This document shows positions 10,645 through 30,820 of a stretch of 37,680 nt of DNA, piece after piece. The notes below the pieces were generated by a model. That model was not told the DNA's origin. It made no database searches and was given only the letters and a program-made list of their open reading frames with translations. Each line of letters begins with the position of its first letter. Position 1 is the stretch's first letter. Position numbers and translations under genes: made by a program. Source of the DNA: an uncultured Erysipelotrichaceae bacterium (GTDB lineage Bacteria > Bacillota_I > Bacilli_A > Erysipelotrichales > Erysipelotrichaceae); assembly GCA_946537255.1 (NCBI GenBank), contig CAMNFS010000016.1, positions 1-37,680 of the forward strand, given 5' to 3'.

Positions 10645-12153
10645 ATGAAACGGATTCTGATTGTGATCGGCTGCCTGGCGGCGGCCGTGCTGATCGTTGT
10701 GCTGCCGAGGCTTCTTGGCGCTTCCGAAGCTTCGGTTTTTTCCGTGCCGGATCAGGAAGCGGAGGTTTCGTTACTGAAACAGCCTGCCCGCTCGATGAGC
10801 CGGGACAGCCATGATATCTACAAGCTCTACAGCTCAGGAGAACTGGTCGGGGTGGTCTCGGACCGGCAGGCTCTTGACGCCTTTCTTCGGGAAGTCTATC
10901 GGACGGAGTATCAGGCCGATTACCCGGATTCCGAGGTTGCGCTTGGTACGGATGTCTATCTTACCCAGGAACAGAGCTATCTCACCTATGAGGATATTGA
11001 TGAGAAGATCTTTGAATATCTGCGGGAAAACCACCTGTTTACCCTGAAGTGCACGGGCGTGGAGTTTTCCGATGACAAGGGTGTCTATGCGGAAATCTAT
11101 GTGAGCAGTGAGGATCTTTTCAACCGCGCGATCAATTCCTATATGACCTGCTTCATCAATCCGGAGGAACTCGCGCTGCTCAACCGCGGGGATTCCACTC
11201 CGCCGCTGAAAACCTATGGATCGCGTTCGGTCGGCATTACGGTATCCCAGAACATTACGATGAAGGAAACCTACGCCGCGCCTCAGGAGATCCGGACGGA
11301 TGAGGCAAGCGTGCTTGACTATCTGGAGTATGGCGATAATCAGAACCGGGAATACTACACGGTTCAGAAATACGACACCGTTGCCGGTGTGGGCTCCAAG
11401 AACCACGGTCTTTCCGCGACCCAGATCATGAATATCAACCGCGACAAAATCACCTCTGTCGATCAGATTCTGCCAGAGGGAGAGGAACTCTGCGTTACCT
11501 ATTTCACATCACCGATCGATATCATCGTGACCAAGGAAACGATGAAAAAGGAACCGATCGTCGCCGAGACAATCTATCAGACGGATTCCAGCATCCGGGA
11601 AGGAGAGACCGTCCGCACCCAGATCGGCGTCGACGGATCCAAGAACGCGCTCTATACCGAGCGGTGGATCAACGGGGTGCTGGTCGGCGGTACTCTGACC
11701 TCTTCCGTAGATACTCTGCAGCCGGTCAATGAAATCATCTCCGTCGGAACCTTCGTGATTCCCGGAGTGGGAACCGGTACCTTCCGCTGGCCGGTGGATA
11801 ATCCGACCGTAACATGCCACTGGGGATGTTACTGGGGACACCGGGCGATCGATATTCAGAACGCCTATGATCACTATGGAAACATCTACGCGGCCGACCG
11901 CGGTGTTGTTGAGGAAAACTCCTATAACGGCGTCAACGGCAACTACGTGATCATCAATCACAACAACGGCTATGAAACGTACTATGGACATATGAATATG
12001 AGATCCCCGCTTCAGGTCGGTGATATCGTGGACAAGGGGGATATCATCGGACAGATCGGCATGACCGGTGCCGCAACCGGGCCGCATACCCATTTCTTCA
12101 TCATGTATGAAGGAACGAGGTATGATCCGTGCAACGGCTTCCTTCCCTGCTGA
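10645..12153 (+). CDS. M23 peptidase with LysM-like and G5 domains
   Basis: Predicted membrane-anchored cell-wall endopeptidase of 502 residues. An N-terminal hydrophobic segment (4-24) is an uncleaved anchor or signal. A long spacer domain with no assigned family follows. Next come a LysM-like module (about 233-292, YYTVQKYDTVAGVGSKNHGLS), a G5 domain (about 294-372) and a C-terminal LytM/M23 domain (about 378-502). Zinc ligands are present: H399 and D403 in GHRAID, and the HTH pair at 481-483. It is probably an active metallopeptidase cutting peptidoglycan cross-bridges or stem peptides. It begins three bases after dnaB, so it is cotranscribed with replication genes. Confidence 0.9.
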   Translation: MKRILIVIGCLAAAVLIVVLPRLLGASEASVFSVPDQEAEVSLLKQPARSMSRDSHDIYKLYSSGELVGVVSDRQALDAFLREVYRTEYQADYPDSEVALGTDVYLTQEQSYLTYEDIDEKIFEYLRENHLFTLKCTGVEFSDDKGVYAEIYVSSEDLFNRAINSYMTCFINPEELALLNRGDSTPPLKTYGSRSVGITVSQNITMKETYAAPQEIRTDEASVLDYLEYGDNQNREYYTVQKYDTVAGVGSKNHGLSATQIMNINRDKITSVDQILPEGEELCVTYFTSPIDIIVTKETMKKEPIVAETIYQTDSSIREGETVRTQIGVDGSKNALYTERWINGVLVGGTLTSSVDTLQPVNEIISVGTFVIPGVGTGTFRWPVDNPTVTCHWGCYWGHRAIDIQNAYDHYGNIYAADRGVVEENSYNGVNGNYVIINHNNGYETYYGHMNMRSPLQVGDIVDKGDIIGQIGMTGAATGPHTHFFIMYEGTRYDPCNGFLPC

Positions 12154-12154
12154 T

Positions 12155-12982
12155 ATGATGAAGTTCGCGCTGTTATGCAGCGGGTCCAAGGGAAACTGTT
12201 TCCTTCTGCAGGATGAACACACCAGTATTCTGATTGACTGCGGAAATACGAAGCGATATCTCTCCATGCGGCTGGAGGAGCTGAAGGTCAGAATCGAGGA
12301 TCTCGACGCGCTTTTGATCACCCATACCCACAGTGATCATATTGCCCAGCTGAAGATGTTTGAAGGCGTCAGAACCTTTGCGCCGACGGACATCGGCACA
12401 CCGTATGAGAAAGTGGAGGCGGGCAGAAAATTTCAGATTGAACATCTGACCGTTACTCCGCTGGCCCTTTCTCATGACGCGGAAAACACCGTCGGCTATG
12501 TGTTTGAAAGCTGGCAGGAGAAACTGGTCTATATTACCGATACCGGATATATCAGAGACAGTTACCTGTCCCTGATCAAGGGAGCGGATTATATCGTTCT
12601 GGAGAGCAATCATGATCCGGAGATGCTGATGAAGACCAGCCGCCCGATGTATCTCAAGCAGCGGATTGCCGGCGACAGCGGGCATCTCTGCAATGAAGAC
12701 TGCGCGGCAGTGCTTCGGAAAACAGTGACAAACCGGACGAAGATGATTATCCTGGCGCATATCAGCGAGCAGGCCAATACGCGCGAAAAGGCGCTTGCGG
12801 TCAGCCGCAGTGCGCTGAAGGAACACAGAGAGAAGCGAAAGGACCTTCTTCTGGCCGCCGCCGGACAGAAGGAAATGATTCTTGGAGGAGAGTGGCTGAA
12901 TGAAAAAGTGGATGGCGGCAGCTGCAGCTGTACTCCTGGCATGGATGCTGTGGCTGACCCTGAAGGTGCAGGAGATCAGTGA
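12155..12982 (+). CDS. yycJ: Metallo-beta-lactamase fold hydrolase, YycJ/WalJ family
   Basis: Predicted metal-dependent hydrolase of 275 residues. In Bacillus and Streptococcus the family is linked to the WalKR locus and to coordination of cell division or DNA repair; its substrate is not firmly known. MKFALLCSGSKGN is the usual N-terminus and H57-T-H59-S-D61-H62 the metal-binding motif. The ATG at 12155 (or 12158) follows the M23 stop by one base with no clear ribosome binding site; upstream in-frame starts at 12107 and 12122 lie inside the peptidase gene. The C-terminus is odd: about 27 residues after GGEWLN run into the next gene, an 83-base overlap. No WalRK genes are visible here. Confidence 0.88.
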   Translation: MMKFALLCSGSKGNCFLLQDEHTSILIDCGNTKRYLSMRLEELKVRIEDLDALLITHTHSDHIAQLKMFEGVRTFAPTDIGTPYEKVEAGRKFQIEHLTVTPLALSHDAENTVGYVFESWQEKLVYITDTGYIRDSYLSLIKGADYIVLESNHDPEMLMKTSRPMYLKQRIAGDSGHLCNEDCAAVLRKTVTNRTKMIILAHISEQANTREKALAVSRSALKEHREKRKDLLLAAAGQKEMILGGEWLNEKVDGGSCSCTPGMDAVADPEGAGDQ

Positions 12983-13985
12983 GAAACGGCCGTCTGAACC
13001 GGAGATCGAACTGAATGAAACCGATGAGGCGGCGATTGTTCACAACACGATTGAGGGCTATACAACGGATGTGACGGAAACGGTCGCGAAGGTCCGTCCG
13101 CATATCGTATCCGTAACCGGTCTTACCGAAGACAGGGAGGTCATCAGCAGCGGCGTAGTCTACGCTGTGATCGGCAATGACACCTGGATTCTTTCCTGCG
13201 CGGAATCGGTAAGGGACAACGCGACCTATCTGGTCCGTTTTGACAACGGCCTTTCCGCTGACGCCCAGCTGGCAGGGCATGATCCTCTGACGGATACGGC
13301 GCTGTTTCTGACGCATCCGGAGTTTGAGGTCCGGCCGATTGATCTTGGCACGGCCTCCGCGGTCACCCCGGGAGAATATGTGATCGCCCTTGGGGCGAGA
13401 AATCTGCATACCCAGAGCGGGCAGGCGTGCTTCGGCATCGTATCCCTGCCTGGCATGTATCATCGCCGCAGCGAAGGGAATCTTGAGTGGATCGTGGAAA
13501 CCATGCTTACGGATACCGCGATTCTTGAAGAAACCAGCGGCGGACCGCTGATCAATCTCAGCGGGCAGATGATCGGCATGCTGTCATCGTCCTTCTCGGC
13601 CAACTTCCGCGGGGCGGCAATGGCGGTTTCCGTATCTGAGGTGATCTCCGCGGCCGAACAGCTGCGGCGCACCGGTACGATCAGCCGCGGTTATCTCGGC
13701 ACCGTGACCCGGCCTGTCAGCGACCTTGAACTGTATCAGAAAAGTGCCATGAACATTTCCCTGGATGTAAACAGCGGCCTGGTCATTACCGAAGTGGCAG
13801 AGGGTTCTCCTGCTCAGGAGGCAGGCCTGCAGCCCAATGATGTCATTCTGACTGCGGATGAAAAGGAACTGGCGGATTCCGCGACCCTGCAGCGCATGCT
13901 GTATGAGAAAAATCCCGGAGATCAGCTTGTCATGACCATTCAGCGGCAGAATACGGTCAGTACCGTGACCGCGGAGCTAAGATGA
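12900..13985 (+). CDS. HtrA/DegP-like protein lacking the catalytic histidine (probable pseudoprotease)
   Basis: Membrane-anchored trypsin-like protein with a PDZ domain, 361 residues. An N-terminal hydrophobic segment (5-20) leads to a trypsin-fold domain (about 55-255) and a PDZ domain (about 262-358, NSGLVITEVAEGSPAQEAGLQPNDVIL). Compared with HtrA, the TNNHVV segment carrying the catalytic His reads SCAESV here, so the position is E102. Asp132 (DPLTDTAL) and Ser213 (TSGGPL) remain, but the oxyanion-loop GNSGG has become ETSGG. Proteolysis by the normal triad is therefore unlikely; a binding, chaperone or regulatory role is more plausible. The position between yycJ and rlmH equals that of htrC/yycK in Bacillus. 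Ribosome binding site GGAGGAG at 12884-12890; stop overlaps rlmH by ATGA. Confidence 0.88.
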   Translation: MKKWMAAAAAVLLAWMLWLTLKVQEISEKRPSEPEIELNETDEAAIVHNTIEGYTTDVTETVAKVRPHIVSVTGLTEDREVISSGVVYAVIGNDTWILSCAESVRDNATYLVRFDNGLSADAQLAGHDPLTDTALFLTHPEFEVRPIDLGTASAVTPGEYVIALGARNLHTQSGQACFGIVSLPGMYHRRSEGNLEWIVETMLTDTAILEETSGGPLINLSGQMIGMLSSSFSANFRGAAMAVSVSEVISAAEQLRRTGTISRGYLGTVTRPVSDLELYQKSAMNISLDVNSGLVITEVAEGSPAQEAGLQPNDVILTADEKELADSATLQRMLYEKNPGDQLVMTIQRQNTVSTVTAELR

Positions 13986-14458
13986 TCCGCCTTCTGTCTG
14001 TGGGACGTGTCAAGGAATCCTGGCTGCGGCAGGGGATTGAGGAATACCGCAGAAGGATTTCCGGGTATGAAGCGATCGAGCTGGTGGAAGTCAGGGATGA
14101 AAAAGCGCCGGAATCCAATTCCCAGGCTGAAAACACCATGGTGAAGGAAGTGGAGGGAGAGCGCGTTCTGAAGCAGATCAGGGAAGGGGAATATGTGATT
14201 CTTCTGGACCTGGATGGAACGTGCGTGGACAGCGTGAACCTCTCGAAGCGGATCGAACAGATTCATACCTCCGGAAAAAACCGCATTGATTTTGTGATCG
14301 GGGGATCGCTTGGTGTGAGTGAAGCCCTGCGGAAACGGGCGGATTTCCGCTGGAAGCTCTCGGACAATACTTTTCCCCATCAGCTGTGCCGGCTGATTGT
14401 TCTTGAACAGATCTACCGCGCATTCCGGATTCTGAATCATGAGCCCTATCATAAGTAG
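13982..14458 (+). CDS. rlmH: 23S rRNA (pseudouridine1915-N3)-methyltransferase RlmH
   Basis: SPOUT-class methyltransferase that uses S-adenosylmethionine to methylate pseudouridine 1915 in helix 69 of 23S rRNA, near the decoding centre. The 158 residues match the family end to end. The knotted SAM site includes VIGGSLGVSEALRKRA (from about residue 105), followed by KLSDNTFPHQLCRLIVLEQIYRAFRILNHEPYHK, the typical C-terminus. The ATG overlaps the stop of the HtrA-like gene (ATGA). Last gene of the operon that begins at yybS. Confidence 0.97.
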   Translation: MIRLLSVGRVKESWLRQGIEEYRRRISGYEAIELVEVRDEKAPESNSQAENTMVKEVEGERVLKQIREGEYVILLDLDGTCVDSVNLSKRIEQIHTSGKNRIDFVIGGSLGVSEALRKRADFRWKLSDNTFPHQLCRLIVLEQIYRAFRILNHEPYHK

Positions 14459-27286: not shown

Positions 27287-28509
27287 GATTTGAAACGTAC
27301 GAAGAGGCAGCCGCTTACGCGGCAGGCAGAAGTAATATGGAATGCCGGTTTGAGAATTTCCGTGACGCGATAAACGAAATCGGCAATCCGCAGAATTCCG
27401 TACCATGCGTGCATGTGGCCGGGACAAACGGGAAGGGCAGTACCTGCAGGTATCTGTATGACATTCTTAAAACAGAATACACGTCGGTCGCTCTGTATAC
27501 GTCTCCGCATCTTGTCGATGTCCGTGACAGGATAAGGATCGATGATGAATGGATTCCGAAGGAACAGTTTACGGAATACATGAATGAAATCCTGCCTCTG
27601 GTTGAAAAGTATTCCCTTTCTCAGGTGGCAATTTACACCATGATGTTTTTCCTGTGGTGTCAGAAGAAAAAGCCGGATATTGCGGTGGTGGAAGTATCTC
27701 TTGGCGGCCGCTGGGATACCACAAATGTGATTGCCTCGCCGCTGTGCTCGGTTATCACCACGATTGATTATGATCACATGCACTGCTTAGGAAATACGAT
27801 TGAACTGATCGCCGGCGAAAAAGCCGGAATCATCAAATACGGCTGTCCGGTACTGCTTGGCAATGTCCGCAGGGAAGCGCAGAGCGTAATCCGGGAATGT
27901 GCCGCCGCCATGCATGCAGAGGTACATGAAAGTCTTCCCTATGAGGACAGTCCGGATGGCGTATGGATCAGGGACAGGTTCTTTCCGGTCTCTGGAAGCG
28001 GGTATCAGCGCATGGATGCGGTGTTTGCCCTGTCCGCAGCGGATCTGATCGGCATTGACATCTTCAGTGAATCCGTAATGGAAGCGGTTCGTGGGTCCTT
28101 CTGGCCCGGACGGTTTGAAACGGTCTCGCTGAATCCGCGGATCATTCTCGATGGATCTCATAATGAGGAAGGCATCCGGGCTCTGATTCAGGAGATTCCG
28201 AATCTTCCCCGACCGGTTATCGCTGTCTTCGCGGTTCTTGCGGACAAGCAGGGAAAAAAGATGGCCGCGATGCTGAGAGAAGCGGCAGACGAACTGATTG
28301 TGACGGAGTTCAGACATGCCCGGGCAGACCGCGCGGACCATGTCGCATCATCCGATGACCTGGTGGTGAATGATTACCGAAGAGCGATAGAGACGGCGGT
28401 AAGCCACGCTGGCAATGGAACGGTTCTGATCACCGGCAGTCTGTATTTTATTGCGAGAGTTCGAAGAGAATTGAAAATTGAAGATAAAACAACCGAAAAT
28501 TGTATATAA
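27283..28509 (+). CDS. folC: Folylpolyglutamate synthase / dihydrofolate synthase
   Basis: ATP-dependent Mur-ligase-family enzyme that adds glutamate to folates and may also make dihydrofolate from dihydropteroate. The 408 residues contain the P-loop [10 protein letters not shown] (about 45-54), the substrate segment [13 protein letters not shown] and the [15 protein letters not shown] motif (usually GLGGR.DATN). The C-terminal ligase domain begins [10 protein letters not shown]. It is translationally coupled to ung. The last bases overlap the glgC promoter, and no terminator is seen, so read-through into glgC is possible. Confidence 0.93.
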
Positions 28510-28523
28510 TGTAAGCGTATTCA
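28505..28523 (+). promoter_or_regulatory. glgCDA promoter with cre-like operator
   Basis: TATAAT (28505-28510) overlaps the cre-like box TGTAAGCGTATTCA (28510-28523). There is no good -35 at 16-18 nt; TTGAAG at 28478-28483 is 21 nt away. The segment 28504-28523 is identical at 19 of 20 bases to 69-88 before the GGDEF/EAL gene. A poor -35 with a regulator-type box suggests regulated expression. Confidence 0.55.
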
Positions 28524-28555
28524 AATTTTATTGTTCAGGGAGGCAAATTATAATC

Positions 28556-29689
28556 ATGAGAGCGAACAGTATGGTGGCCATGATTCTTGCGGGCGGAAGA
28601 GGATCCCGTCTGTATGATCTGACCAAGAAAGTTGCGAAGCCGGCTGTCCACTTCGGAGGCAAGTACCGGATCATCGACTTTCCACTCAGCAACTGCGCGA
28701 ATTCGGACATCAAGACCGTTGGCGTGCTGACGCAGTACGAATCAGTACTTCTTAATTCCTATGTCGCACGGGACCACTACTGGGGTCTGGATACGTACGA
28801 CGGCGGCGTTTACGTACTGACACCGCGGGAAAGAGACACATCGAATCTCGAAGTATACCGCGGCACGGCAGATGCGATCACAGCAAACATCGACTTCTTA
28901 GACAACATCAATCCGGAATATATTCTGATTCTTTCCGGAGACCACATCTACAAGATGAACTATGACAAGATGCTTGCATACCACAAGGAAAAGAATGCCG
29001 ACGCGACGATCGCCGTACGTGAGGTTCCCCTCAAGGAAGCGACACGTTTCGGAATCATGAACTGCGATGCGGATGATATGATCATTGACTTTGAGGAAAA
29101 GCCGGCAAAGCCGAAGAGCAATCTCGCTTCGATGGGTATTTACATCTTCACTTACAAGACTCTCCGCAAATATCTGGTGGCTGACGCTAAGAATCCGGAC
29201 AGCAATCACGATTTCGGAAAGGATATCATTCCGCAGTATCTGAGAGACAAGAAGCGTCTGACTGCGTTCCGTTTCCGCGGCTATTGGATGGACGTTGGTA
29301 CGGTCAACTCCCTCTGGGAAGCAAACATGGATCTTCTCAAGGAGAACGCAGAGCTTGATCTCGGTGATCCGACCTGGAAAATCTACACGGAAGATGTCAA
29401 CGCGCTTCCTCAGTTCATCGGCAAGGATGCTCATGTGGAACACTGCTACGTTACTCAGGGCAGCGTGATTGAAGGAGATGTCAAGAACTCCGTCATCGGC
29501 ACCAATGTCGTGATCGGCAAGGGCGCCAAGGTTGTGGACTGTGTCATTCAGCCGGGTGCTGTGATCGGTGAAGGCGCAACCGTCACAAGATGCATCGTCG
29601 CAGATGATGTCGTGGTTCCGCCGAATGCAGTATTCGGATCCGCCAAGAGCGAGGATATTCAGCTCGTTGCGGACAAGGTAAGTGAGTAA
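28556..29689 (+). CDS. glgC: Glucose-1-phosphate adenylyltransferase, catalytic subunit GlgC
   Basis: Makes ADP-glucose from ATP and glucose-1-phosphate, the committed step of glycogen synthesis. The 377 residues carry the nucleotide loop [33 protein letters not shown], the catalytic SG128-D129-H-IYKMNYD segment, and a C-terminal left-handed beta-helix with hexapeptide repeats ([21 protein letters not shown]). The start at 28556 has GGGAGG (28538-28543) 12 nt upstream; the ATG at 28571 is an alternative. It is followed by glgD and glgA in one operon, the arrangement of Geobacillus stearothermophilus and many Bacillota. Confidence 0.96.
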
Positions 29690-29707: not shown

Positions 29708-30820
29708 ATGCGTGCATTAGGAATTATCAGTTTTGAAGACAACACGGCCAATATCGAAGGTCTCTGTGATCATCGTCCGGTTCCGGCGATTGCATTCATG
29801 GGCCGTTACCGTATCATTGACTTCATTTTGAGCAACATGACCAACAGCGGTATCAACAACGTTCAGGTTTACTGCAAGGAAAAACCCCGCAACCTGATTG
29901 AACACCTCGGTGATGGAAGTCACTACAATATCAACTCCAAGCGCGGAAAGCTCCGCATCCTCTATGGTGAGAAGAGCTTCTCCTCCGATGTGTACAACCA
30001 CGACGTCGCCAACTACATGCTCAACATGCAGTATATCGAAGAGGATCCGAATCCGTATGTCGTCGTAGCGCCGAGCTACTTCGTATATCCGATTGACTTC
30101 AACGATGTACTCAAGCAGCATGTGGACAGCCGTGCCGATGTCACGATTCTCTATACCTCCGCAAAAGACGCCAAGAATCAGTTCCTTGGATGCGATGTTG
30201 TAAAGCTTGACAAGTTCAAGACAGTGACCGGATTTGAAAAGAACCGCGGCAAGCTCAAGAGCCAGCAGATTTCTCTTGAGGCCTATGTCATGACAAAGAA
30301 ACTGTTCATCGAACTCGTTACCAAGGCAGCGGAGACTTCCTCTCTGTACTGGTTCAAGGATGTTCTGGCGGACTCCGTTGACGAGCTGACCATGAAGGGG
30401 TATCAGGTCAAGGGTTATGTGGCATGCCTGAACTCTCTGTCTGAATACTTCCGTGTCTCCATGGAACTCATCGACCACAAGAAGGCGCTTCAGCTGTTCA
30501 AGCCGGGATGGCAGATCTACACCCAGACCAACGACAGCTGCCCGACCACATTCTCCGAAAGTGCCCGGGTCACCAACAGCGTTGTCGCCAACGGCGCCGT
30601 GATCGAAGGCAAGGTGGAAGGCTCCATCATCAGCCGCGGCTGCACCATCCGCAAGGGTGCTCAGCTGAAGAACTGCATCCTTCTGCCGGGCGCTTATATC
30701 GGTGAGAATGCCAAGCTGGACCATGTGGTTGTGGACAAATATGCGATTGTACATCATGTCAAGAAGCTGGAAGGCACCGACCAGCAGCCGGTATATGTAC
30801 AGCGCCGCGACCGTATCTGA
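29708..30820 (+). CDS. glgD: Glucose-1-phosphate adenylyltransferase subunit GlgD
   Basis: Partner subunit that stimulates GlgC in the heteromeric enzyme of Bacillota. The 370 residues share the nucleotidyltransferase and beta-helix layout, but the catalytic motifs are lost. The GGRGSRL loop is absent (ALGIISFEDNTANIEGL), and the SGDHIY segment is replaced by APSYFVYPIDF. It is thus expected to be non-catalytic on its own. A good ribosome binding site (AAGGAG) precedes the ATG; the spacing to glgC is 18 bases. Confidence 0.95.
   Translation: MRALGIISFEDNTANIEGLCDHRPVPAIAFMGRYRIIDFILSNMTNSGINNVQVYCKEKPRNLIEHLGDGSHYNINSKRGKLRILYGEKSFSSDVYNHDVANYMLNMQYIEEDPNPYVVVAPSYFVYPIDFNDVLKQHVDSRADVTILYTSAKDAKNQFLGCDVVKLDKFKTVTGFEKNRGKLKSQQISLEAYVMTKKLFIELVTKAAETSSLYWFKDVLADSVDELTMKGYQVKGYVACLNSLSEYFRVSMELIDHKKALQLFKPGWQIYTQTNDSCPTTFSESARVTNSVVANGAVIEGKVEGSIISRGCTIRKGAQLKNCILLPGAYIGENAKLDHVVVDKYAIVHHVKKLEGTDQQPVYVQRRDRI

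Follow-up and report, generated by a model that had tools for sequence, protein, structure and literature searches.

The window, that is, the whole stretch of 37,680 nucleotides that was analysed, carries dnaB, a G5 and M23 peptidase gene, a yycJ-type gene, an HtrA-like gene and rlmH in this order. The original prediction had placed the HtrA-like gene in a yycJ-rlmH locus, and this is confirmed by its neighbours, a yycJ-type metallo-beta-lactamase gene and rlmH. The features of the locus are listed below.

10645..12153, forward strand: G5 and M23 (LytM-type) peptidase, 502 aa, upstream in the array, with the zinc-site motifs HxxxD and HxH present.
12158..12982, forward strand: yycJ/walJ-type metallo-beta-lactamase-fold protein; the ORF list starts it at 12068 (GTG), and 12158 is the likely start.
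12900..13985, forward strand: HtrA/HtrC-like putative pseudoprotease, 361 aa, with an N-terminal helix, a trypsin-like domain and one PDZ domain (from the ORF, Pfam and the model).
12903..12983, forward strand: N-terminal helix, residues 2-28 in the model, presumed to insert as a membrane anchor.
13203..13205, forward strand: E102 (GAA), at the catalytic His position.
13293..13295, forward strand: D132 (GAT), at the catalytic Asp position.
13527..13544, forward strand: E210-E211-T212-S213-G214-G215, the GNSGG segment, with S213 as AGC at 13536-13538.
13686..13700, forward strand: R263-G-Y-L-G267, the presumed PDZ peptide-carboxylate loop, a function assumed from HtrA/DegP biology.
13982..14458, forward strand: rlmH (SPOUT_MTase, 178.5 bits).

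The yycJ-type gene and the HtrA-like gene overlap by 83 nt, and the HtrA-like stop and the rlmH start overlap in ATGA. The same gap of -4 was found in 56 of the 65 loci of the genus, where yycJ was detected in 64/65 and rlmH was overlapping or 1 nt off in 65/65. The ORF starts were assigned mechanically, and rows such as L033 carry an upstream extension that is probably untranslated. Elsewhere in the window, two adjacent GlgC-like nucleotidyltransferases (28478-29689 and 29708-30820) are located among glycogen genes, with NTP_transferase scores of 238.7 bits for the former protein and 45.6 bits for the latter. The weaker one presumably resembles the GlgD regulatory subunit.

Pfam comparison of the window protein identified Trypsin_2 at residues 84-227 (54.8 bits, cut-off 27.6) and PDZ_2 at residues 266-360 (61.1 bits, cut-off 27); the latter bears out the earlier statement that the PDZ domain is intact. 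When phmmer was run against DegP, MucD and DegQ chains, the segment WILSCAESV was paired with the YILTNNHVV-type segment, which places E102 on the catalytic His. The His-Asp-Ser triad is absent from the window protein, which has E/D/S instead, and ETSGG replaces GNSGG. The codons and the phmmer alignment thus agree with the original reading of Glu at the catalytic His, of D132 and S213 as retained, and of the altered loop before the Ser. The NCBIfam models degP_htrA_DO (133.1 bits, cut-off 416.2) and SerProtHtrA (111.4 bits, cut-off 470) were both below cut-off, a shortfall that alone says little on catalysis, as the scores refer to the window protein only.

AlphaFold2 was used to predict the structure of the window protein, with a mean pLDDT of 88.7 and a pTM of 0.78. 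The best match of the model (VIA) was DegQ 3pv2_B, with Z 32.3 and rmsd 3.9 over 282 aligned residues. Similarly, a D/G/Y-type member from the other half of the genus was predicted with a pLDDT of 86.9, and its best match was again DegQ 3pv2_B (Z 31.8, rmsd 4.7, 281 aligned). When given a family alignment, AlphaFold is prone to reproduce the family fold, and the predictions were not blind to this fold, since both input alignments contained a few active HtrAs. Residues 16-360 of the window protein also matched PHROG family 11383, which contains phage proteins of unknown function (E 5e-36); an HtrA-like protein of such a layout may therefore occur in some phage or prophage records.

The genus set consisted of 70 genomes, namely the window genome (G000, 2.44 Mb) and 69 congeners, and all 70 were matched in the homology search. 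Full-length same-locus orthologues were obtained from 65 of them. Two further genomes, G140 and G119, gave contig-edge pieces only, and the remaining three (G031, G075 and G165) matched canonical HtrA only. Neither rlmH nor a same-locus copy was found in G165. His was present at position 102 in 0/65 full-length orthologues, and the triad was complete in 0/65. Both pieces from G140 span position 102 and are also without His; the piece from G119 ends short of it. The same position is His in 42/42 active same-locus orthologues, where active is defined by the triad itself. Among the 65 genus rows, Asp is kept in 28, Ser in 4, and both in 3 (the window protein, L033 and L047), so that the window protein is among the least degraded members of the genus.

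The His position is occupied by S, D, E, Q, R, K, N, A or T across the genus, with a gap in two full-length rows, and 11 different residues were found at the nucleophile position. Glu, which might have been fixed among relatives, was found in only 8/66 genus rows; with nine different residues at this position, it is not a fixed replacement. At position 132, Asp is changed to Gly in 30/66 genus rows (among L062-L098); most of these rows belong to one half of the clade, which looks as though it had fixed a new residue at this site. Relatives in named records comprise 24 loci with 30-64% identity, deposited under Solobacterium sp., Erysipelotrichaceae and, in one case, Lachnospiraceae. They are mostly MAGs, and many carry titles that point to the gut of sheep, cattle, deer or goat.

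A second, canonical HtrA of 484 aa is encoded in the window genome, with TNNHVV and GNSGG. It is a distant paralogue on another contig, with 29% identity over query residues 74-352. The H, D and S residues of canonical HtrA are kept in 61/61 genus genomes examined (the window genome and 60 further ones), and the second intact htrA that had been proposed as a check is thereby found. The nine other genomes comprise seven without a second search match, most of which are incomplete, and two (G126 and G163) in which the second match was unread. Wherever the canonical copy was read it is intact, so that only the yycJ-rlmH copy is affected by the loss. The yycJ-rlmH copy itself is reduced in G031 to a stub with the N-terminal 81 aa, which ends on rlmH (L163:1256-1501), and in G075 to a stop-ridden remnant (L162:1974-2245, minus strand). 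In both of these small genomes, yycJ and rlmH still flank the stub or remnant. These two small-genome congeners indicate that the function is dispensable in some members.

The comparison was extended to the family, in which 115 genomes were searched and 107 had a match. Outside the genus, an orthologue was counted as same-locus when yycJ or rlmH was detected on the same strand; 42/52 such orthologues are H/D/S-intact and 10/52 are not. Close relatives with an intact TNxHV motif had been named in the original prediction as a sign of a strain-specific error. None was found inside the genus, where His is absent throughout; intact orthologues predominate in the other genera of the family. The ten inactive orthologues fall in eight other genera, and intact congeners are present in three of these (g18, g19 and g35). 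Their altered triads are Q/D/A (L018), K/D/A (L025), F/G/N (L108), S/D/N (L116), S/D/T (L117), N/G/R (L118), N/D/G (L120), D/S/V (L127) and H/D/T (L006 and L014). The inactivity of L006 and L014 is less sure, because only Ser is changed to Thr and His and Asp are kept. In the second family of the order, TNxHV and GNSGG were present in 20/20 HtrA sequences from any neighbourhood, and the Asp pattern in 6/20.

Phylogenetic analysis was performed with the catalytic columns removed. The 130-row tree is a quick tree, from which the partial rows L040, L089, L100 and L137 were left out; its warnings concern long branches (L117, L120, L127, L128 and L077) and odd letter make-up in 11 rows. All 65 genus rows form one clade in this tree (SH-aLRT 98*). 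For the active or inactive label, the minimum is 8 changes, of which well-supported (starred) branches force 5. A branch with 100* parts 122 rows, including 5 without detected yycJ or rlmH, from 8 canonical rows. The grouping of the window protein with the active same-locus HtrAs, apart from canonical HtrA, identifies it by sequence relationship as an HtrC-type orthologue. A 66-row tree was built with 20/65 genus rows and 4 canonical rows, with near copies (L009, L013, L020, L024, L106 and L121) and very-long-branch rows (L117, L120, L127 and L128) dropped. The genus clade of 20 rows has 100* in this tree, and the label needs 6 changes. That all inactive same-locus HtrAs share one origin was rejected by the AU test on this tree (p 2.3e-17). 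The simplest reading of these trees would be a single early loss in the genus and several later, independent losses elsewhere.

Selection was measured by Nei-Gojobori dN/dS in 19 genus orthologue pairs (>75% identical), which gave values of 0.023-0.172 with a median of 0.103; these pairs share lineages and are therefore not 19 independent tests. The values for 7 pairs of active homologues were 0.029-0.144 with a median of 0.044; in one of these pairs (L102/L104), neither yycJ nor rlmH was detected. The higher values of the genus indicate a somewhat weaker constraint. The protease-like part had a dN/dS below the PDZ value in 14/19 genus pairs. The overall pattern of these estimates speaks against neutral decay.

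The residues that are conserved were compared between the two groups. In the 42 active orthologues, 42 columns are at least 85% conserved, and in the genus 11 of these drop to less than 50%: H102, Q203, P244, F241, S213, G211, D132, L224, E223, G309 and N116. Gly211, for example, is present in 9% of the 65 genus rows vs 98% of the 42 active orthologues. A hypergeometric P of 0.014 on the conserved columns is post hoc and descriptive only. G85, D128, G158, G214 (65/65), G222, G293, W15 and V70 are 100% conserved in the genus, and K2 is, like W15, an invariant residue of the N-terminal helix across the 65 rows. Nine residues are conserved in at least 80% of the genus rows but in less than 50% of the active rows: L13, Y54, D115, P140, Y160, R167, F178, G264 and L330. 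The residues around R167 and F241-P244 would, on our assignment from DegP and DegS work, belong to the LD and L2 loops. The PDZ loop of HtrA binds C-terminal peptides, as is known from DegP and DegS, and this loop is kept in the genus with R263 in 64/65, L266 in 61/65 and G267 in 54/65. Both Trypsin_2 and PDZ_2 were found in 31/31 members scanned, 29 of them genus rows. At the level of the alignment, conservation extends to the glycine scaffold, the motif of the N-terminal helix and the PDZ loop, but not to the catalytic and nearby active-site residues.

The M23 domain of the array was found in 61/67 genus locus records, and the other six records end at a contig edge within about 0.9 kb upstream. 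One or more M23 zinc-site residues are lost in 5/61 genus loci (L091, L092, L095, L096 and L097), and the zinc site is intact in 48/48 loci of other genera; L100, L162 and L163 are genus loci and stand outside these 48. L162, the locus with the decayed HtrA-like gene, has Gly for the last His of the zinc site. These cases of M23 co-loss are too scarce and too clustered for any conclusion. The C-terminus of the M23 protein was considered as a PDZ ligand and was rejected. Its Cys-containing end (e.g. PCxGFLPC) is common to active and inactive lineages, and therefore does not discriminate between them. No match to YycI or YpeB was found in any of the 70 genus genomes.

Several explanations can be given for an HtrA-like gene without a triad. 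Sequencing or assembly error has a negligible probability. Many of the relative genomes are fragmented drafts with many contigs, but His is gone in genomes of 65 species, one per species, which also rejects a strain-specific mutation; the frames are open, and canonical HtrA is intact in most of the same genomes. It is very unlikely that the protein retains protease activity by means of an unusual active site, with a relocated His or with Ser or Thr served by another base. Asp and Ser are both retained in the window protein, L033 and L047, but the variety of residues at the nucleophile and His positions across the genus and the scarcity of the oxyanion-loop Gly211 argue against such a site. Another histidine in the triad had been raised earlier as a possible objection. 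No column has His in half of the 65 genus rows (the best has 26/65), and no candidate for a relocated catalytic His emerges from this alignment. It is also improbable that the gene is a relic of a dispensable protease in slow decay towards loss, held in place by its overlaps with yycJ and rlmH. The stub in G031, the remnant in G075 and rates above those of active pairs would fit such a decay, and an open frame might be under selection because of the ATGA shared with rlmH. A constraint that keeps the frame would not, however, preserve amino acids, and this disfavours decay: the ORFs are full-length in 65 genomes, dN/dS is 0.02-0.17 in 19 close pairs, and both invariant and genus-specific conserved residues occur, the former protein-wide.

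Two further explanations assign the protein a specific partner. The first partner is the intact canonical HtrA, with which the protein could form mixed trimers or which it could activate, as MamO does for MamE. This is possible, but we consider it rather unlikely. The canonical HtrA is intact in all 61 genus genomes examined, and MamO promotes MamE proteolysis according to PMC4794232; the same paper states that a physical MamO-MamE interaction was undetected by its authors. Moreover, the canonical HtrA is only distantly paralogous and is encoded on another contig, it also accompanies an active same-locus HtrA (G024: L131 and L103), and seven genus genomes have no second HtrA match in the search. 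The other partner is the M23/G5 peptidoglycan hydrolase of the array, which would be bound and controlled but not cut, an echo of the action of HtrC on YpeB-SleB. We give this only a modest chance as well. It is favoured by the frequent M23 neighbour, by the five loci with lost zinc-site residues, and by the cleavage of YpeB, the partner of SleB, by Bacillus HtrC, as reported in PMC13393411. An obligatory M23-HtrA pair is nevertheless disfavoured, because M23 also adjoins active HtrAs of other genera and persists after loss of the HtrA-like gene (L162 and L163); YpeB itself was not found in the genus genomes. In a wider and more speculative version, which we regard as doubtful, the whole M23-yycJ-HtrA-rlmH array would be turning from enzymes into a regulatory scaffold. 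HtrC would have lost catalysis once in the ancestor and become a PDZ-bearing membrane organiser of the LytM-type hydrolase, whose zinc site then went in a few lineages, and the yycJ-rlmH HtrA would be a family-wide hot spot for such conversion.

These data indicate that the window protein belongs to a long-lived pseudoprotease under purifying selection and is no error, as judged from genome comparison. It is close to certain, from the residues predicted at the active site, that the protein cannot cut by the HtrA mechanism. The shape and the genome place are kept without the cutting machinery, which suggests that the protein probably has a useful job that does not involve cutting. The original prediction of a non-proteolytic role, drawn from a lost triad with fold, PDZ domain and locus kept, gains support from the missing His, the single clade, the purifying selection and the intact paralogue; the role itself stays a probable one, and its assignment to envelope quality control a hypothetical one. 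We favour, with some reserve, an HtrC-type pseudoprotease of the genus that acts as a non-cutting peptide-binding scaffold, holdase or regulator. The catalytic His would have been lost once in the ancestor of the genus, after which drift or replacement affected what remained of the catalytic centre. The protein kept the HtrA fold under purifying selection, and the separate canonical HtrA kept the full triad where examined. The pseudoprotease would be anchored in the membrane through its N-terminal helix, facing the cell wall. Its PDZ loop and protease-like groove may bind C-terminal or unfolded peptide segments of another envelope protein, for which the pseudoprotease would serve as scaffold, holdase or regulator; the intact HtrA and the M23/LytM-type hydrolase of the same array are candidate partners.

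Such a protein would represent a natural separation of function, in which the protease was removed from one HtrA and the remainder was kept in dozens of species. It may show which HtrA surfaces are retained once there is no need for cutting, and could yield test proteins for the non-proteolytic function of HtrA. The annotation 'serine protease HtrA' at the yycJ-rlmH locus would mislead across the genus. Among the titles and abstracts retrieved from open-licence literature, none reports a pseudo-HtrA for Erysipelotrichaceae or for the yycJ-rlmH locus.

Among known systems, the Bacillus HtrC gene, for which we assume YyxA to be a further name, presumably adjoins yycJ/walJ. HtrC (HtrA3, YycK) is an HtrA adjoining rlmH according to PMC12826053, and one PDZ domain with a membrane helix is given for Gram-positive HtrAs in a review. 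Like HtrC, the window protein has one PDZ domain, an N-terminal helix and rlmH as a neighbour, and the same-locus orthologues of the family are mostly H/D/S-intact and in this respect HtrC-like. Unlike HtrC, the genus orthologues are all without the catalytic His and usually without the Ser, and the genus genomes are without a YycI or YpeB match. The window protein also shares its predicted fold (Z about 27-32) and PDZ domain with the S1C HtrA proteases DegS, DegP and DegQ, but the genus protein is without their catalytic triad and GNSGG loop. The closest precedent is MamO and the degenerate MamE copies, which are described in PMC4794232 as HtrA pseudoproteases that occur next to an active HtrA-type protease and stem from several independent losses. 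Similarly, the genus pseudoprotease is retained without a triad beside an active-looking HtrA-type protease. The window protein, however, scores 21.2 bits for MamO and 50 bits for MamE, with cut-offs of 800 each. As for the surface di-His metal site of MamO, the alignment shows only that no genus column reaches His in half of the rows. The genus losses also sit in a locus that active orthologues occupy as well, and not in a newly duplicated copy. HtrA pseudoproteases are thus already known from magnetotactic bacteria, and the genus-wide HtrC-type pseudoprotease adds a variant to them.
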